Assembly: GCA_902531765.1 (NCBI GenBank)
Contig: CACAFC010000008.1
Coordinates: forward strand, 1-52,933
DNA: 52,933 nt
From: an uncultured Pelagibacteraceae bacterium
GTDB taxonomy: Bacteria > Pseudomonadota > Alphaproteobacteria > Pelagibacterales > Pelagibacteraceae
Reading direction: 5' to 3'
In this document: in pieces, positions 1 through 22,995 of the stretch
How positions within the stretch are numbered: the stretch's first letter is position 1
Layout: each line of letters begins with the position of its first letter
Made by a program: the position numbers and the translations under genes
Notes under the pieces: model-generated
Databases searched by the model: none
Seen by the model: only the letters and a program-made list of their open reading frames with translations
Told to the model about the DNA's origin: nothing

Positions 1-245
1 TTAAATTTAATTTTTTTATTGAATGGAAAAGATAATATATCAGTAGATTTATTTTTATTTCTAAAATGTTTATTTAATTTTTTAATATTTTTATTATTAG
101 AAAGTGACAGACTGAATGAAACTTTTTTGTTTGGGAATTGATATTTTTTTGGAAAAGATTTACATATTTTTTTAAAAAAAAGATCTGTATTTTTAAGTCT
201 TCTTGACCAAGCCTTCTCTTCAGAGAAGACACTAATTTTAATCAT
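1..245 (-). CDS. ybeY: Endoribonuclease YbeY, N-terminal part (cut by window edge)
   Basis: YbeY is a metal-dependent RNase that matures 16S rRNA and acts in ribosome quality control. Only about the first 81 residues are present, because the gene runs off the left edge. The translation starts MIKISVFSEEK and contains NKHFRNKNKSTDILSFPF, which matches the family signature of a conserved Asn, an Arg, then S/P-T-D-V/I-L-S-F-P. The metal-binding histidine motif would lie outside the window. The ATG at 245 overlaps the end of phoH by 8 bases, so the two are probably translationally coupled. The phoH-ybeY order is conserved across proteobacteria, which supports the call. Confidence 0.88.
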   Translation of the reverse strand, partial: MIKISVFSEEKAWSRRLKNTDLFFKKICKSFPKKYQFPNKKVSFSLSLSNNKNIKKLNKHFRNKNKSTDILSFPFNKKIKF

Positions 246-1233
246 TATTTGAGTATGCTTTTACTATTTTTGAAACAAGTGGATGTCTAACTACATCTGA
301 GTGATCAAAATCAATAATTGATATCTCTTTTAAATGCCCAAGTAATTCTTTTGATCGAACTAATCCTGACATATTTTTGTTAGGTAGATCAATTTGAGTT
401 GGATCTCCGTTAACTACAATTTTTGAATTTTCACCAATACGAGTAAGAAACATTTTGATTTGAGTATCTGTTGCATTTTGTGCTTCATCTAAAATTGCAA
501 AGGAATTTTTAAGAGTTCGACCTCTCATAAAAGCCAGCGGTGCAATTTCTATATCTCCGATTTCAATCATTCTTTGAATTTTTTCGAAATCAAAAAGGTC
601 GTATAAAGAATCATATAAAGGTCTTAAATAAGGATCTACTTTCTCTTTCATATCACCAGGTAAGAATCCTAGACGTTCTCCAGCTTCAACAGCAGGTCGT
701 GATAAGATTATTCTCTCAATTTTTTTCTCCAAAAGCATAGTCAAACCAACTGCGACTGCCAAAAAAGTCTTACCCGTTCCTGCCGGTCCAGCAGAAATTA
801 CAATATGACTTTGTCTTAAAGCTCTAACATAATTTTTTTGTTTCTCAGATCTGGGGATTATTGATTTTTTAGGAGTTTTAATTATGTCAGTTATATTATT
901 TTTTTTTATTTTTTCATTAATCATAAATTTGTCTACAGAAGAAAATATATCTTTATTTTCGATATTTCCATTATTAATAAATTGATTTACTAAAAATTGG
1001 ATCGCATTCTTTACTTTTTCATTTGTTTCTGGATCTGATTTTATAAGAATAGAATTTCCCCTTGAATATAAACTGCAACTTGTAATTTTTTCAAGTTCCT
1101 GTAAATTTTTATTAAATTCACCAACAACTCCCATTAACAAATCGTTATCATGAAATATTACACTTAAAGAGTTATTATCTGAGTAAACAAACTTTAATGC
1201 TTGATCGATATTCTTTTTTGTTATCCCACCCAA
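238..1233 (-). CDS. phoH: PhoH-like ATPase (YbeZ type)
   Basis: Cytoplasmic P-loop ATPase of the PhoH/YbeZ family, thought to work with YbeY in RNA metabolism. The protein has 331 residues. A KH-like N-terminal part (about 20-100) is followed by the ATPase domain with Walker A GPAGTGKT at about 149-156, the family block SRPAVEAGERLGFLPGD, and a Walker B-like ILDEAQNA near 247-254. The start is a TTG at 1233, only 2 bases after the miaB stop. The next in-frame Met is inside the conserved N-terminal domain, so the TTG is preferred. It lies in the run fur-miaB-phoH-ybeY, probably one transcript. Confidence 0.93.
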   Translation of the reverse strand: MGGITKKNIDQALKFVYSDNNSLSVIFHDNDLLMGVVGEFNKNLQELEKITSCSLYSRGNSILIKSDPETNEKVKNAIQFLVNQFINNGNIENKDIFSSVDKFMINEKIKKNNITDIIKTPKKSIIPRSEKQKNYVRALRQSHIVISAGPAGTGKTFLAVAVGLTMLLEKKIERIILSRPAVEAGERLGFLPGDMKEKVDPYLRPLYDSLYDLFDFEKIQRMIEIGDIEIAPLAFMRGRTLKNSFAILDEAQNATDTQIKMFLTRIGENSKIVVNGDPTQIDLPNKNMSGLVRSKELLGHLKEISIIDFDHSDVVRHPLVSKIVKAYSNND

Positions 1234-1235
1234 AT

Positions 1236-2564
1236 TTATGCTACTTTCTGATTTGAATTATCTACAATTTTACCAAATAAAGTACTTCTATTACTTTTAT
1301 GAATTTTTACTTTCATAATTTTTCCAATGTCACTTTTCTTACCATCACAAATTACAGATGTCATGTGCTCAGATCTGCCGAAAATTTTAGTTTTATCTTC
1401 TGTAAAGTTTTCAACTAATACTTCTACAATAGTGTTTTCTAAAGATTTATTCTTTTTAATCTGATTTTCAAACAGCTCATTTTGAATTCTCTCTAATCTT
1501 TCAAATGAAGTTTTTTTATCAATTAAATCTAAATTTTCAGAGACAGTTCCAGGTCTAGGGCTAAAAATATACGAGTAAGAATTTATAAACTTTACTTTTT
1601 TTATTAAATTTAAAGTATCTTCAAAGTCCTGATTTTCCTCACCAGGGTAAGCTATTATAAAATCACTTGAAAATTCTATTTTTGAATTAATTTCTTTTAA
1701 TTTGTAAAATGTTTCAAGGTATTTCTCAATAGAGTGATTTCTATTCATCAATTTTAATATTCTATTCGATCCACTTTGCACTGGTAAATGCACAAGCGGC
1801 ATAAGTTTATTTGAACTTTTATAAACTTCAATCAAGTCATTGGTCATATCTTTTGGATGAGATGTTGTGTATCTTACTCTTTTAATATCATTTAGTTTTT
1901 CAATACCTAGAATTAAATCTGATAAACGAAAACCATTACTTTCATAAGCATTAACATTTTGACCTAACAAAGTTATTTCCCTTACGCCATTGTCTGCTAA
2001 ATATTTTGCTTCATCCAAAACTTGACTAGGTGGTCTCGAGTACTCTGGACCTCTAGTATAGGGAACTACACAAAAATGACAAAACTTATCACATCCCTCT
2101 TGAATTGTTAAAAAAGATGAAACCTTTGCTACTTTAGTTTTTATTTTACTAAAATATTTAAATTTTGTAACTGCATCAAAATCTGTTTCTTCAAGTTTCC
2201 TTTTTTTTTCTTCATAATTTAAAATTGTATGATTAATTTTATGGTAAGCTTGAGGACCAATTACCAAATCTATAAAAGGCTCTCTTTTAAGCATTTCTTG
2301 ATTTTCTGCTTGAGCAACACAGCCTGCAATAATAACTAATGGTTTTTTTTTAAATCTAAAAATTTTTTTTACTCTGCCTATTTCAGAATAAACTTTTTCT
2401 TTAGCTTTATCCCTTATATGACATGTGTTTAACAAATAACAATTAGCATTCTCGTATTTTTCTGTCTTCTCATAACCAATTTTTTTAACAGTATCTAATA
2501 TTCTATTTGAGTCATACTCATTCATTTGACATCCAAAAGTTTTAATGAAAATTTTTTGACTCAT
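1236..2564 (-). CDS. miaB: tRNA-2-methylthio-N6-dimethylallyladenosine synthase MiaB
   Basis: Radical-SAM methylthiotransferase that converts i6A37 to ms2i6A37 in tRNAs reading UNN codons. It has 442 residues, the usual family length. The N-terminal UPF0004 domain begins KIFIKTFGCQMNEYDS, with cluster cysteines at C12, C48 and near residue 82. The radical-SAM CxxxCxxC is EGCDKFCHFCVVPYTRG near residues 155-172. A C-terminal TRAM-like segment follows, with RSEHMTSV and a terminal GKIVDN stretch. The start ATG directly abuts the fur stop and its own stop is 2 bases from phoH. Confidence 0.97.
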   Translation of the reverse strand: MSQKIFIKTFGCQMNEYDSNRILDTVKKIGYEKTEKYENANCYLLNTCHIRDKAKEKVYSEIGRVKKIFRFKKKPLVIIAGCVAQAENQEMLKREPFIDLVIGPQAYHKINHTILNYEEKKRKLEETDFDAVTKFKYFSKIKTKVAKVSSFLTIQEGCDKFCHFCVVPYTRGPEYSRPPSQVLDEAKYLADNGVREITLLGQNVNAYESNGFRLSDLILGIEKLNDIKRVRYTTSHPKDMTNDLIEVYKSSNKLMPLVHLPVQSGSNRILKLMNRNHSIEKYLETFYKLKEINSKIEFSSDFIIAYPGEENQDFEDTLNLIKKVKFINSYSYIFSPRPGTVSENLDLIDKKTSFERLERIQNELFENQIKKNKSLENTIVEVLVENFTEDKTKIFGRSEHMTSVICDGKKSDIGKIMKVKIHKSNRSTLFGKIVDNSNQKVA

Positions 2565-3005
2565 TTATTGAGGCTTTTTTTTAACCCCATATAATTCCAA
2601 TTTATGATCTACTAATTTATAACCGTATTTTTCAGCAACTTTTTTTTGAAGTTTCTCTATCTCATCATCAACAAATTCTATGATCTCACCTGTTTTGATA
2701 TCTATCAAATGATCATGATGGCTCTCGATCATTGCTTCATATCTTGCCTTTCCACCTTTAAAATCGTGTTTTGTTAAGATCCCAGCCTCCTCGAATAGTT
2801 TTACTGTTCTATAAACTGTAGCAATACTAATTTTTGGATCAACTTTCGAAACACGATTATAAAGTTCATCAACGTCAGGGTGATCTGACTCTCCATACTC
2901 TGACTTTGACTCCGAAATTATTTTTGCAATAATTTTTCTTTGTTCTGTAAGTTTAACACCTTTAGCTAAACATTTTTGTTCAATTGTATCTGCTGCATCT
3001 GACAT
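2565..3005 (-). CDS. fur: Fur-family metalloregulator (Fur/Mur type)
   Basis: DNA-binding metal-responsive repressor of the Fur superfamily with 146 residues. The winged-helix part holds the recognition segment ISIATVYRTVKLFEEAG (about 59-75). The dimerisation/metal domain holds HHDH at 96-99 followed by LIDIKTGEIIEF. It lacks the CxxC pair that E. coli Fur has just after this His cluster, and the only Cys is C12. Alphaproteobacterial Fur/Mur proteins also usually lack that pair, so this is not a defect. Whether it senses Fe or Mn cannot be told from sequence. It lies between tsaB and miaB, a conserved alphaproteobacterial position. Confidence 0.93.
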   Translation of the reverse strand: MSDAADTIEQKCLAKGVKLTEQRKIIAKIISESKSEYGESDHPDVDELYNRVSKVDPKISIATVYRTVKLFEEAGILTKHDFKGGKARYEAMIESHHDHLIDIKTGEIIEFVDDEIEKLQKKVAEKYGYKLVDHKLELYGVKKKPQ

Positions 3006-3013
3006 ACCTAATT

Positions 3014-3397
3014 CTAACTTATATAATAAGGTTTAATCAAATTTTTTTTGAGGTTAAATTTACTGCAAAGATGCGGTATATTTTCGTACTTTACATTCGT
3101 TTCATTCTCAAAGTCTTCAAAACTAAAGCAATAATAATCAATTTTTTTAATCATATGAATTGCTTTAATTGTTGATAAAGAATTTCTGATACCTGCAAAA
3201 CTACCAGGACCTCTATTAATATAAATTGATTCGATATCACTAATCTCTAAATTATTATTTTTTAAAAAATCATTAAGTAAAATAATTAGTTTTTCATAAT
3301 TATTTTTGCTATTTTCATGGGTAACACTATAAGTATTATTATTAATGATCATAAAAAAAATATTATCTTTTACAGCATCTATAATTAATTTATTCAT
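3014..3397 (-). CDS. tsaB: Shortened TsaB-like protein (tRNA t6A37 synthesis)
   Basis: TsaB is the non-catalytic partner of TsaD in N6-threonylcarbamoyladenosine tRNA modification. From the ATG at 3397 the protein is only about 127 residues, against roughly 220-230 for typical TsaB. The N-terminal ASKHA-fold start (MNKLIIDAVKDN) and the hallmark YINRGPGSFAGIRNSLSTIKAIH are present. The second lobe is missing, yet the end KPYYIS resembles the usual TsaB C-terminal P-x-Y-L-R. Only 8 bases separate its stop from the fur start, so there is no room for the rest. rimI, often found between tsaB and fur, is absent. An upstream extension to 3544 would run through the divergent deacetylase gene and is not believed. 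Confidence 0.78.
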   Translation of the reverse strand: MNKLIIDAVKDNIFFMIINNNTYSVTHENSKNNYEKLIILLNDFLKNNNLEISDIESIYINRGPGSFAGIRNSLSTIKAIHMIKKIDYYCFSFEDFENETNVKYENIPHLCSKFNLKKNLIKPYYIS

Positions 3398-4400
3398 TTT
3401 TATAATTATATTGACTTTTAACTCAAACGCACAAGAAAATAACGCTAAATATTTTTCTAATGATGAAGGTGTACTGTCTATTATGTACCATCGATTTAAC
3501 GAATTTAAATATCCACCAACGAATATATCAATGGATGTTTTCAAGAAACATGTTGAACTTATTTTAGATGCTAACTTAAACTTTTATCATCCAAAAGATT
3601 TTGTAAATGAGTTTGATATTCCAAAAAAGGAAAAAAAAATTCTTCTTACTGTTGATGATGCCTTTCTGTCCTTTTATGATAATGCCTGGCCTTACTTAGA
3701 AAAAAAACAAATTCCATTTGTGTTATTTGTTTCAACTGAACCCGTTGGTAACAAAGGATACATGAACTGGGAACAAATTAAAGAAATTGAACGAAGTGCA
3801 TTCGGGGTTATTGGGCATCACTCACACTCCCATGATTATTTAATTGATAAATCAGAAGAAGTTTTTTTAGATGACATAAAATCATCAAATCGAATTTTTA
3901 AAGAAAAGTTAGGATATGTACCTACTTTATTTTCTTACCCATTTGGAGAATATTCAGGATTTATGAGAGATTATATATCTCGAAATTTCAAAATTGCATT
4001 TGGACAACACTCTGGAATTATTGACGTAAATAAAAATAAATTTGAACTTCCAAGATTTCCAATAAATGAAAAGTATGGGGAAATTAAAAGATTTAAATCA
4101 ATAATAAACTATTTTCCCCTTGAATATAAAAACTTAGAACCCAAGGAAAAAAAATTATCAAAAGAAAATAATCCACCTAAATTTAAAGTAAGATTTTTTG
4201 ATGAACAAAAAAATATTGAAAATATTAACTGCTATTCAAATGAAGGAGATAAATGGAAGAAATCAAAAATTAAACTTGTTGAGAAAGAACTCACAATAGA
4301 ATTTAGGGAACCTTTCTTGCCTAGAAGAGGTCGAATTAATTGTTCTGTAAATGATAATGGTAAATGGAGATGGTTCGGTACACAATTTATTATTAGATAA
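3345..4400 (+). CDS. Secreted polysaccharide deacetylase (NodB-like, CE4)
   Basis: Predicted exported carbohydrate esterase of the NodB/CE4 family, which removes N- or O-acetyl groups from polysaccharide or peptidoglycan. It has 351 residues. The N-terminus is a signal peptide (MIIKKILSF, a hydrophobic run to about residue 26, then NSNAQ). The catalytic Asp pair is in LLTVDDAF (D104, D105), the metal-binding histidines in GHHSHSH (about 157-163), and a later motif is FSYPFGEYS. A C-terminal extension (about 260-351) with two Cys and many charged residues has no identified domain. Its 5' end overlaps the start of divergent tsaB by 53 bases, and it converges on the Bax-like gene with a 6-base gap. 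The substrate is unknown. Confidence 0.87.
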   Translation: MIIKKILSFTASIINLFIFIIILTFNSNAQENNAKYFSNDEGVLSIMYHRFNEFKYPPTNISMDVFKKHVELILDANLNFYHPKDFVNEFDIPKKEKKILLTVDDAFLSFYDNAWPYLEKKQIPFVLFVSTEPVGNKGYMNWEQIKEIERSAFGVIGHHSHSHDYLIDKSEEVFLDDIKSSNRIFKEKLGYVPTLFSYPFGEYSGFMRDYISRNFKIAFGQHSGIIDVNKNKFELPRFPINEKYGEIKRFKSIINYFPLEYKNLEPKEKKLSKENNPPKFKVRFFDEQKNIENINCYSNEGDKWKKSKIKLVEKELTIEFREPFLPRRGRINCSVNDNGKWRWFGTQFIIR

Positions 4401-22337: not shown

Positions 22338-22995
22338 CTCTCCTTCCAAATATACCTGTGCCAATTCTTAAATATGTTGACCCATACTCTAAAGCATCCA
22401 AATAATCATTGGTCATACCCATACTAATTTCAGGGAGTTTGATTTTATTGTTTAAATTAAGTAACTCTTTAAAAAATAACTTTGGATCTTGATCGTCTGG
22501 TGGAATACACATGGTCCCTACAATGTCTAATTTCAACGATAAACAATTTTTATAAAACACTTCTAAATCATTGGGCTCTATTCCAGATTTTTGTTTTTCT
22601 CCACCTAAATTAATCTGAATAAACATCTTAACTTTTTTATTTTTTTTATGAATTTCACTTGCTAATTTATTGGCAAGCTTGAGATTGTCCAAAGAATGAA
22701 TATAATCGAAGATATCAACTGCAAACTTAACTTTGTTTGTTTGCAGCTTTCCCAGCATATGTAATTTTACGTTTTTATATTTTTCTTTAAGTTTGGGCCA
22801 CTTTAATAAAGCCTCTTGAACTTTATTTTCACCAAAATCAAGATGGCCATAATCTAATAAAGGCAAAATATCTTGCTCTTTAAAAGTTTTTGATACAGCA
22901 ATCACTTTTGGATTATATTGATCTAAGGATAATGAATTAATTTTACTCTTAATTTTATTATTAATTTCAATTAAATTGCTTTCAGTATGATGCAT
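22330..22995 (-). CDS. yggS: Pyridoxal phosphate homeostasis protein (YggS/PROSC family)
   Basis: PLP-binding protein with an alanine racemase-type TIM barrel and no known catalytic activity, needed for vitamin B6 balance. It has 221 residues. KVIAVSKTFKEQDI carries the PLP lysine (about residue 36). Further motifs are DFGENKVQEALLKW, HMLGKLQTNKV, KMFIQINLGGEKQKSGI and the C-terminal ISMGMTNDYLDALEYGSTYLRIGTGIFG. Its start overlaps the start of the divergent ThiE/TenI-like gene by 6-9 bases. Confidence 0.95.
   Translation of the reverse strand: MHHTESNLIEINNKIKSKINSLSLDQYNPKVIAVSKTFKEQDILPLLDYGHLDFGENKVQEALLKWPKLKEKYKNVKLHMLGKLQTNKVKFAVDIFDYIHSLDNLKLANKLASEIHKKNKKVKMFIQINLGGEKQKSGIEPNDLEVFYKNCLSLKLDIVGTMCIPPDDQDPKLFFKELLNLNNKIKLPEISMGMTNDYLDALEYGSTYLRIGTGIFGRRAN

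Follow-up and report, generated by a model that had tools for sequence, protein, structure and literature searches.

A conserved head-to-head coding overlap of tsaB and a polysaccharide deacetylase gene in SAR11 bacteria

Two divergently oriented genes of a SAR11 bacterium, a member of a marine group with small genomes, begin inside one another: tsaB, a tRNA-modification gene, and a polysaccharide deacetylase gene overlap and share the DNA of their first codons. Comparison with relatives leads us to a reading, held with a probability of roughly 0.77, in which this is a real, old and frame-locked divergent overlap: a gap between the genes closed, the deacetylase grew into tsaB, and each promoter came to lie inside the neighbor's coding sequence. 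Throughout, "the window" is the whole stretch of DNA analyzed, 52,933 nucleotides forming one contig of a 1.05-Mb, 25-contig SAR11 genome. An earlier note on this DNA had proposed that a tsaB start at 3397 on the minus strand and a deacetylase start at 3345 on the plus strand overlap by 53 bases in opposite directions, and these coordinates proved exact (Table 1). The deacetylase frame is open from 3333 through to its stop.

Table 1. Coordinates of the overlap, its neighbors and the candidate regulatory elements in the window.
Feature	Position	Strand	Remarks
tsaB	3014..3397	-	ATG 3397-3395, stop ends at 3014; 127 aa; first codons shared
Polysaccharide deacetylase (PF01522)	3345..4400	+	ATG 3345-3347; 351 aa; signal-peptide-like N-terminus
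Head-to-head coding overlap	3345..3397	both strands	53 bp, phase (123:213), third codon position opposite third
Deacetylase codon 17 (TTC)	3393..3395	+	third base C completes tsaB ATG
tsaB codon 17 (ATC)	3347..3349	-	third base C completes deacetylase ATG
Presumed deacetylase promoter zone	3290..3343	+	inside tsaB codons 19-36
Candidate hexamers, deacetylase zone	TTTGCT 3305-3310, TATAAG 3328-3333	+	17-bp spacer
Presumed tsaB promoter zone	3420..3455	-	inside deacetylase codons 26-37
Alternative -10-like TATAAT	3405..3410	-	8-13 bases before tsaB ATG; sequence match only
Fur-family gene	2565..3005	-	next after tsaB; PF01475 E 1.7e-40
miaB-like gene	1236-2564	-	after Fur-family gene; UPF0004, Radical_SAM, TRAM
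phoH-like gene	238-1233	-	after miaB-like gene; PhoH

Conservation of the two starts and the proteins they encode

A search of the genus matched the deacetylase in 49 of 61 genomes. Two of these matches were fragments without the N-terminus and were dropped, and all 47 remaining loci, the window's own included, carry an ATG/ATG overlap of 47-68 bp. The overlap also withstood an alignment of both N-termini in further relatives, a check that the earlier note had put forward: in an enlarged genus set that includes the 47, both ATGs and the overlap were found in 74 of 75 distinct loci, with a length of 53 bp in 59 loci, 47 bp in five, 50 bp in four, 68 bp in four and 56 bp in two. The sole miss (L059) is without the tsaB ATG and was dropped, along with 12 duplicate loci, before later counts. 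A second set, partly from the same genomes as the first, comprised 80 named deacetylase records among the matches listed (of 578), titled Pelagibacteraceae, Pelagibacterales or Candidatus Pelagibacter ubique. Both ATGs and the overlap are present in 79 of the 80 (53 bp in 73, 47 bp in five, 56 bp in one), the exception being L216, where ATA stands in place of the deacetylase start codon and is closely preceded by an in-frame GTG. Removal of L216, of ten repeated sequences and of a locus with a short TsaB (L203) left 142 non-redundant genus loci. The overlap is exactly 53 bp in 122 of them and the relative frame of the two genes is identical in all 142, with the qualifications that the loci are related by descent, so that their counts are not independent, and that the search for ATGs was confined to the homologous positions and their surroundings, so that a count records a start present there rather than a free start prediction. 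In L203, a Pelagibacteraceae record, the tsaB frame runs for just 48 aa from the usual start, and the locus represents either a broken gene or an assembly error.

In phase (123:213), one wobble base of each gene is dictated by the start codon of the other, and this leaves a fingerprint on the codons involved. The G of the deacetylase ATG occupies a fixed alignment column in 65 of 74 loci, as does the C completing the tsaB ATG (65 of 74), and where a locus is without the start base in the fixed column, the start has moved by whole codons. An unguided scan, in which every codon column of the 142 loci was scored for its surprise given the amino acid, returned codon 17 as the top outlier in both genes: z 9.4 among 343 columns in the deacetylase (TTC 110, GTC 13, CTC 6, ATC 5) and z 6.8 among 126 columns in tsaB (ATC 84, CTC 38). 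A parsimony tree built from deacetylase codons beyond column 60 agrees: deacetylase codon 17 changed in 5 steps, where the 35 other Phe columns have a median of 13 and a single one changed as little, and tsaB codon 17 changed in 7, where the 51 other Ile columns have a median of 29 and two changed as little. The 142 loci comprise a GPGS-type subset of 116 and a remaining 26. In these 26, where power is lower, the wobble base of deacetylase codon 17 does not stand out (a fraction of 0.261 of the columns is equally low). The window's own group of 12 loci, again with lower power, gives the same picture for codon 17 of both genes (0.241 and 0.134 of columns). Further deacetylase outliers were codon 2 (z 5.0), which lies opposite TsaB Met16, and codon 34 (z 4.3), in the zone upstream of tsaB. 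The scan also returned an unexplained outlier, the deacetylase Arg50 column (3492-3494, plus strand; z 6.1; AGA 56 and CGT 55 of 142), which sits ~95 bp upstream of the tsaB ATG.

Beyond the overlap, deacetylase codons 18-40 show coding-type change, with mean parsimony steps of 12.5, 9.5 and 19.3 at positions 1, 2 and 3, which makes a deacetylase start further downstream unlikely. On this pattern and the fingerprint of the ATG, we rejected M47 as the deacetylase start. We also rejected TsaB M16 (ATG at 3352, inside the palindrome ATGATCAT) as the tsaB start: it is missing in relatives, L014, L019 and L022-L031 among these, and strand 1 of the protein would go. The 68-bp overlaps occur in four relatives, and in L037 and L041 the tsaB frame holds no ATG, GTG or TTG between the tsaB ATG and the deacetylase start. 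On the comparative evidence of codon fingerprints, conservation and the TsaB fold, both starts are genuine.

The earlier note had also claimed that the same DNA encodes the first strand of TsaB and, antisense, an export signal, and both parts of this claim gain support from the two proteins. In the predicted structure of TsaB (mean pLDDT 84.1), which has the N-terminal lobe fold of TsaB/YeaZ, strand 1 spans residues 2-7 and strand 2 residues 12-18. The model's best Foldseek matches are solved YeaZ/TsaB structures (E 2.8e-8), and the TsaB profile aligns residue 1 with residue 1 of the solved TsaB 6nak. Against PF00814 the protein scores 29.4 bits (cut-off 24.8), while against TIGR03725 it scores 53.5 bits (E 3e-14), below the equivalog cut-off of 69.3, with the best stretch covering profile positions 2-92 of 212. 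The deacetylase falls within PF01522 (E 2.6e-20; 73.1 bits against a gathering threshold of 23.1), and the plus strand of the overlap encodes its N-terminus, MIIKKILSFTASIINLF. The first eight residues carry a net charge of at least 1 in 141 of 142 relatives and are followed by a hydrophobic core, a charge and core pattern that is signal-peptide-like, and the protein is probably exported. Residues A11, S12, I13 and I14 each reach 90% conservation or more across 21 sequences and, because of the overlap phase, lie opposite TsaB L-I-I-D-A.

The genus has a mini-form of TsaB, 121-143 aa long in the 74 loci, in which the N-terminal lobe is kept and the distal part is missing; its tail, LI(K/N)PxY, is present in 139 of 142 loci. 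TsaB measures 208-211 aa in four sister-family loci, and in other genera of the family its length is mixed, with 125-127 aa in g2, g4, g6 and g14 and mostly ~171-206 aa elsewhere. This distribution suggests that the distal part was lost repeatedly in the family.

Silent-site constraint upstream of both starts

We modeled the expected third-position steps in the 142 loci from amino-acid composition together with non-silent change, and scored the residuals. Upstream of each gene, a stretch of the neighbor shows suppressed silent change: tsaB codons 19-36 average z -2.19 and deacetylase codons 26-37 average z -2.05. No equal-length window in deacetylase codons 60-351 is as low as these two zones, with the reservation that these null windows come from codons also used to train the model. 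Flanking stretches are normal (z -0.05 in tsaB codons 37-60 and -0.10 in deacetylase codons 38-50), and the overlap itself is mildly suppressed (z -1.21 in deacetylase codons 2-16 and -0.57 in tsaB codons 2-16). The GPGS-type subset gives -2.17 for the tsaB zone and -2.12 for the deacetylase zone, with 0.000 of null windows as low; the remaining 26 loci give -0.75 and -0.65, again with 0.000 as low, and in the window's group of 12 the values are -0.73 (0.000 of null windows as low) and -0.54 (0.011).

The promoter-like sequences within these zones are of varied quality. The genus consensus before tsaB reads TTGATA-N16-TAGAAT, and at the conserved hexamer places the window is degenerate, its TTTAGC and TTGAGT being poor matches; the alternative TATAAT listed in Table 1 is found in the window and its near relatives. 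On the deacetylase side, 113 of 142 loci carry TATAA between -24 and -9 relative to the ATG. A synonymous-shuffle promoter score, based on sigma-70 matrices, was not significant on the deacetylase side across the 142 loci (mean z 0.45; 6% with p<0.05) and moderate on the tsaB side (mean z 1.46; 44% with p<0.05), where the best-scoring site lies at -29 in 87 of 142 loci. A generic promoter scan of positions 2950-3700, which are AT-rich, returned 15 matches against 6.1 expected (sd 2.3). Two 9-of-12 matches were set aside as carrying little meaning in AT-rich DNA, namely TTTTCA-N16-TATTAT at 3312-3339 (plus strand), in the deacetylase zone, and TAGACA-N18-AAAAAT at 3480-3451 (minus strand), which touches the edge of the tsaB zone.

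The earlier note had placed each promoter, by deduction, within the opposite gene. The suppressed silent change is the main support for that placement; the null shuffle score for the deacetylase, the weak tsaB hexamers of the window and the suppression found elsewhere, in the overlap and at the 3' end of tsaB, weigh against it. Promoter function is the likeliest but not the only meaning of the constraint upstream of the two starts, and it is from this constraint that we infer promoters and transcript starts.

The strongest suppression of the tested zones lies outside the divergent region, in tsaB codons 113-127 (3017-3061, minus strand; mean z -2.48), where Leu120 is TTG in 141 of 142 loci. 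The 3' end of tsaB may hold the promoter of the adjoining Fur-family gene, with TTGATT-N18-TAGAAT at 3040-3011 as the candidate.

Origin of the overlap and competing explanations

Outside the genus, 53 of 59 matches were examined, those left out (G090, G117, G120, G122, G125 and G132) being mostly fragmentary, broken or at a contig edge. tsaB lies opposite the deacetylase in 45 of these 53 family loci, from 11 genera, and every one of these pairs overlaps, with the relative frame seen in the genus. With starts set by rule (ATG preferred to GTG) and overlaps given by the shortest start choice, the lengths are graded: 2-20 bp in g12, 2-14 bp in g5, 17 bp in g6, g11, g13 and g14, 29-35 bp in g3 and g10, 32 bp in g2 and g4, and 38 bp in g8. 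In the eight loci of g7 and g9, no tsaB match was found in the ~1.4-1.5 kb upstream of the deacetylase, and tsaB is located elsewhere in two g9 genomes. In the four sister-family loci fetched, 41-64 bp separate the two head-to-head genes, which stand in three different relative frames. In 141 of 142 genus loci the conserved MYHR motif of the deacetylase starts at residue 45-48; the corresponding position is 35-45 in other overlapping genera, 35-38 in the sister family and 28-29 in g7 and g9, whose short signal peptides are without ASII. The distance from start to MYHR thus rises with the overlap, which fits growth of the deacetylase at its N-terminus.

These gradations suggest a single origin of the overlap, given the sister-family gaps, and the simplest reading is one gap closure followed by frame lock and by growth of the deacetylase N-terminus in threes; we infer from the comparison both that the origin was single and which way the start shifted. 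A short gap between two head-to-head genes would have closed in an ancestor of the SAR11 family, after which the deacetylase N-terminus would have extended upstream into tsaB. Part of the signal peptide would then be the antisense of the first TsaB strand, with LIIDA reading ASII(K/N/S). Because an indel in the shared stretch breaks both genes, the relative frame would be frozen and only steps of three tolerated. The deacetylase promoter would lie inside tsaB codons 19-36 and the tsaB promoter inside deacetylase codons 26-37, facing each other. Judged from the hexamer places, the two transcripts would be complementary over very roughly 60-80 nt, and their 5' ends are complementary in this way only if the promoters sit where the constraint is. 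Any transcriptional interference between them we take to be a tolerated side effect.

The strongest of the competing accounts invokes compaction only: genome streamlining removed the spacer, promoters and overlap have no joint role, and the frame lock by itself explains why the overlap persists. We give this somewhat better than even odds, and it is compatible with the gap-closure reading set out above. The sister-family gap and the graded overlaps within the family speak for it, as does the count of divergent pairs in the window's ORF list, where two of 11 pairs picked by hand overlap, the other by 9 bp. It leaves unexplained, however, why the overlap is longest, and so often exactly 53 bp (122/142), in the genus. 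The 9-bp overlap, at 22987-22995, joins an Ala_racemase_N protein (minus strand) and a TMP-TENI protein (plus strand), with mechanical ORF starts.

A second account makes the overlap an active regulatory switch, in which face-to-face polymerases collide or occlude one another, the 5' ends of the transcripts pair, and tsaB, with the Fur-family, miaB-like and phoH-like genes behind it, is expressed reciprocally to the deacetylase. The constraint upstream of both starts speaks for such a switch, and there are precedents in the available text of two studies: in phage 186, pR inhibits pL in the same geometry (PMC7498355), and scbA-scbR has been modeled as a switch (PMC3134472). Against it, tsaB and the deacetylase are not neighbors in the eight g7/g9 loci, the phage 186 pL does not, in the same text, interfere with pR (PMC7498355), and geometry alone predicts some interference without selection. 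Mutual regulation of the two genes is plausible, yet we consider a selected switch unlikely, and doubt slightly more a genus-wide reciprocal switch in which each coding sequence provides the other with its promoter and a 5' antisense. If it were true, the row of tsaB, Fur-family and miaB-like genes would be tuned against an envelope-side deacetylase without a dedicated regulator or intergenic DNA, through polymerases colliding across the shared stretch and promoters written into the other gene's silent sites. Compaction with frame lock is the favored and safer cause over mutual regulation.

That one gene simply begins later, leaving no coding overlap, is very improbable: although all 75 divergent overlaps longer than 60 bp in one survey, in the part of its text available, were judged start errors (PMC2478687), the codon fingerprints, the conservation of the ATGs, TsaB strand 1, the coding-type change in deacetylase codons 18-40 and the positive n-region with a hydrophobic core in relatives all weigh against it. 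The 68-bp overlaps in four relatives themselves run against that survey's verdict, as far as its available text gives it (PMC2478687).

Significance and relation to known systems

Long divergent coding overlaps are readily dismissed as start errors, and the tsaB/deacetylase pair has codon evidence at both starts. Overlaps of intermediate length in sister genera make it possible to trace, step by step, how such an overlap arises. The pair suggests how a streamlined genome might accommodate both promoters and both starts within coding sequence, and the codon-surprise and silent-site scans could be used genome-wide to look for gene-internal promoters in organisms that are hard to grow. Among the papers listed by our literature searches, we judged none to describe the tsaB/deacetylase pair; the "TSAB" that appears in the available text of PMC10592609 is an agar, not the gene.

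Several known systems resemble this one in part. scbA-scbR of Streptomyces coelicolor, as described in the available portion of PMC3134472, consists of divergent genes with face-to-face promoters, as the present pair would, and has an overlap of 53 bp. There, however, the 53 bp are counted from transcription start sites, whereas here they are coding overlap, and the tsaB/deacetylase pair has no known repressor or signal. The pR-pL pair of coliphage 186 also has face-to-face promoters, 40-60 bp apart in P2-like phages, but it forms a lytic/lysogenic switch with bound regulators, and the accessible text describes no coding overlap (PMC7498355). If the two transcripts overlap, the arrangement would be akin to an excludon, in which neighboring mRNAs are antisense to each other; the excludon is defined, in the part of the source at hand, by a long mRNA and exclusive expression (PMC7154746).

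Also similar in form are the divergent overlaps of a survey of 58 species, which, in the text available, make up an under-represented class of 331 cases, with phase (123:213) the commonest at 59% of the 331 and 50% of the 274 that are at least 5 nt long (PMC2174442). Like tsaB and the deacetylase, the genes of these pairs lie on opposite strands, overlap at their 5' ends and can have third positions facing. Unlike that survey, as far as its available text shows, the present analysis traces one pair through a genus and its family, supports both starts at the codon level and finds suppressed silent change ahead of each (PMC2174442).
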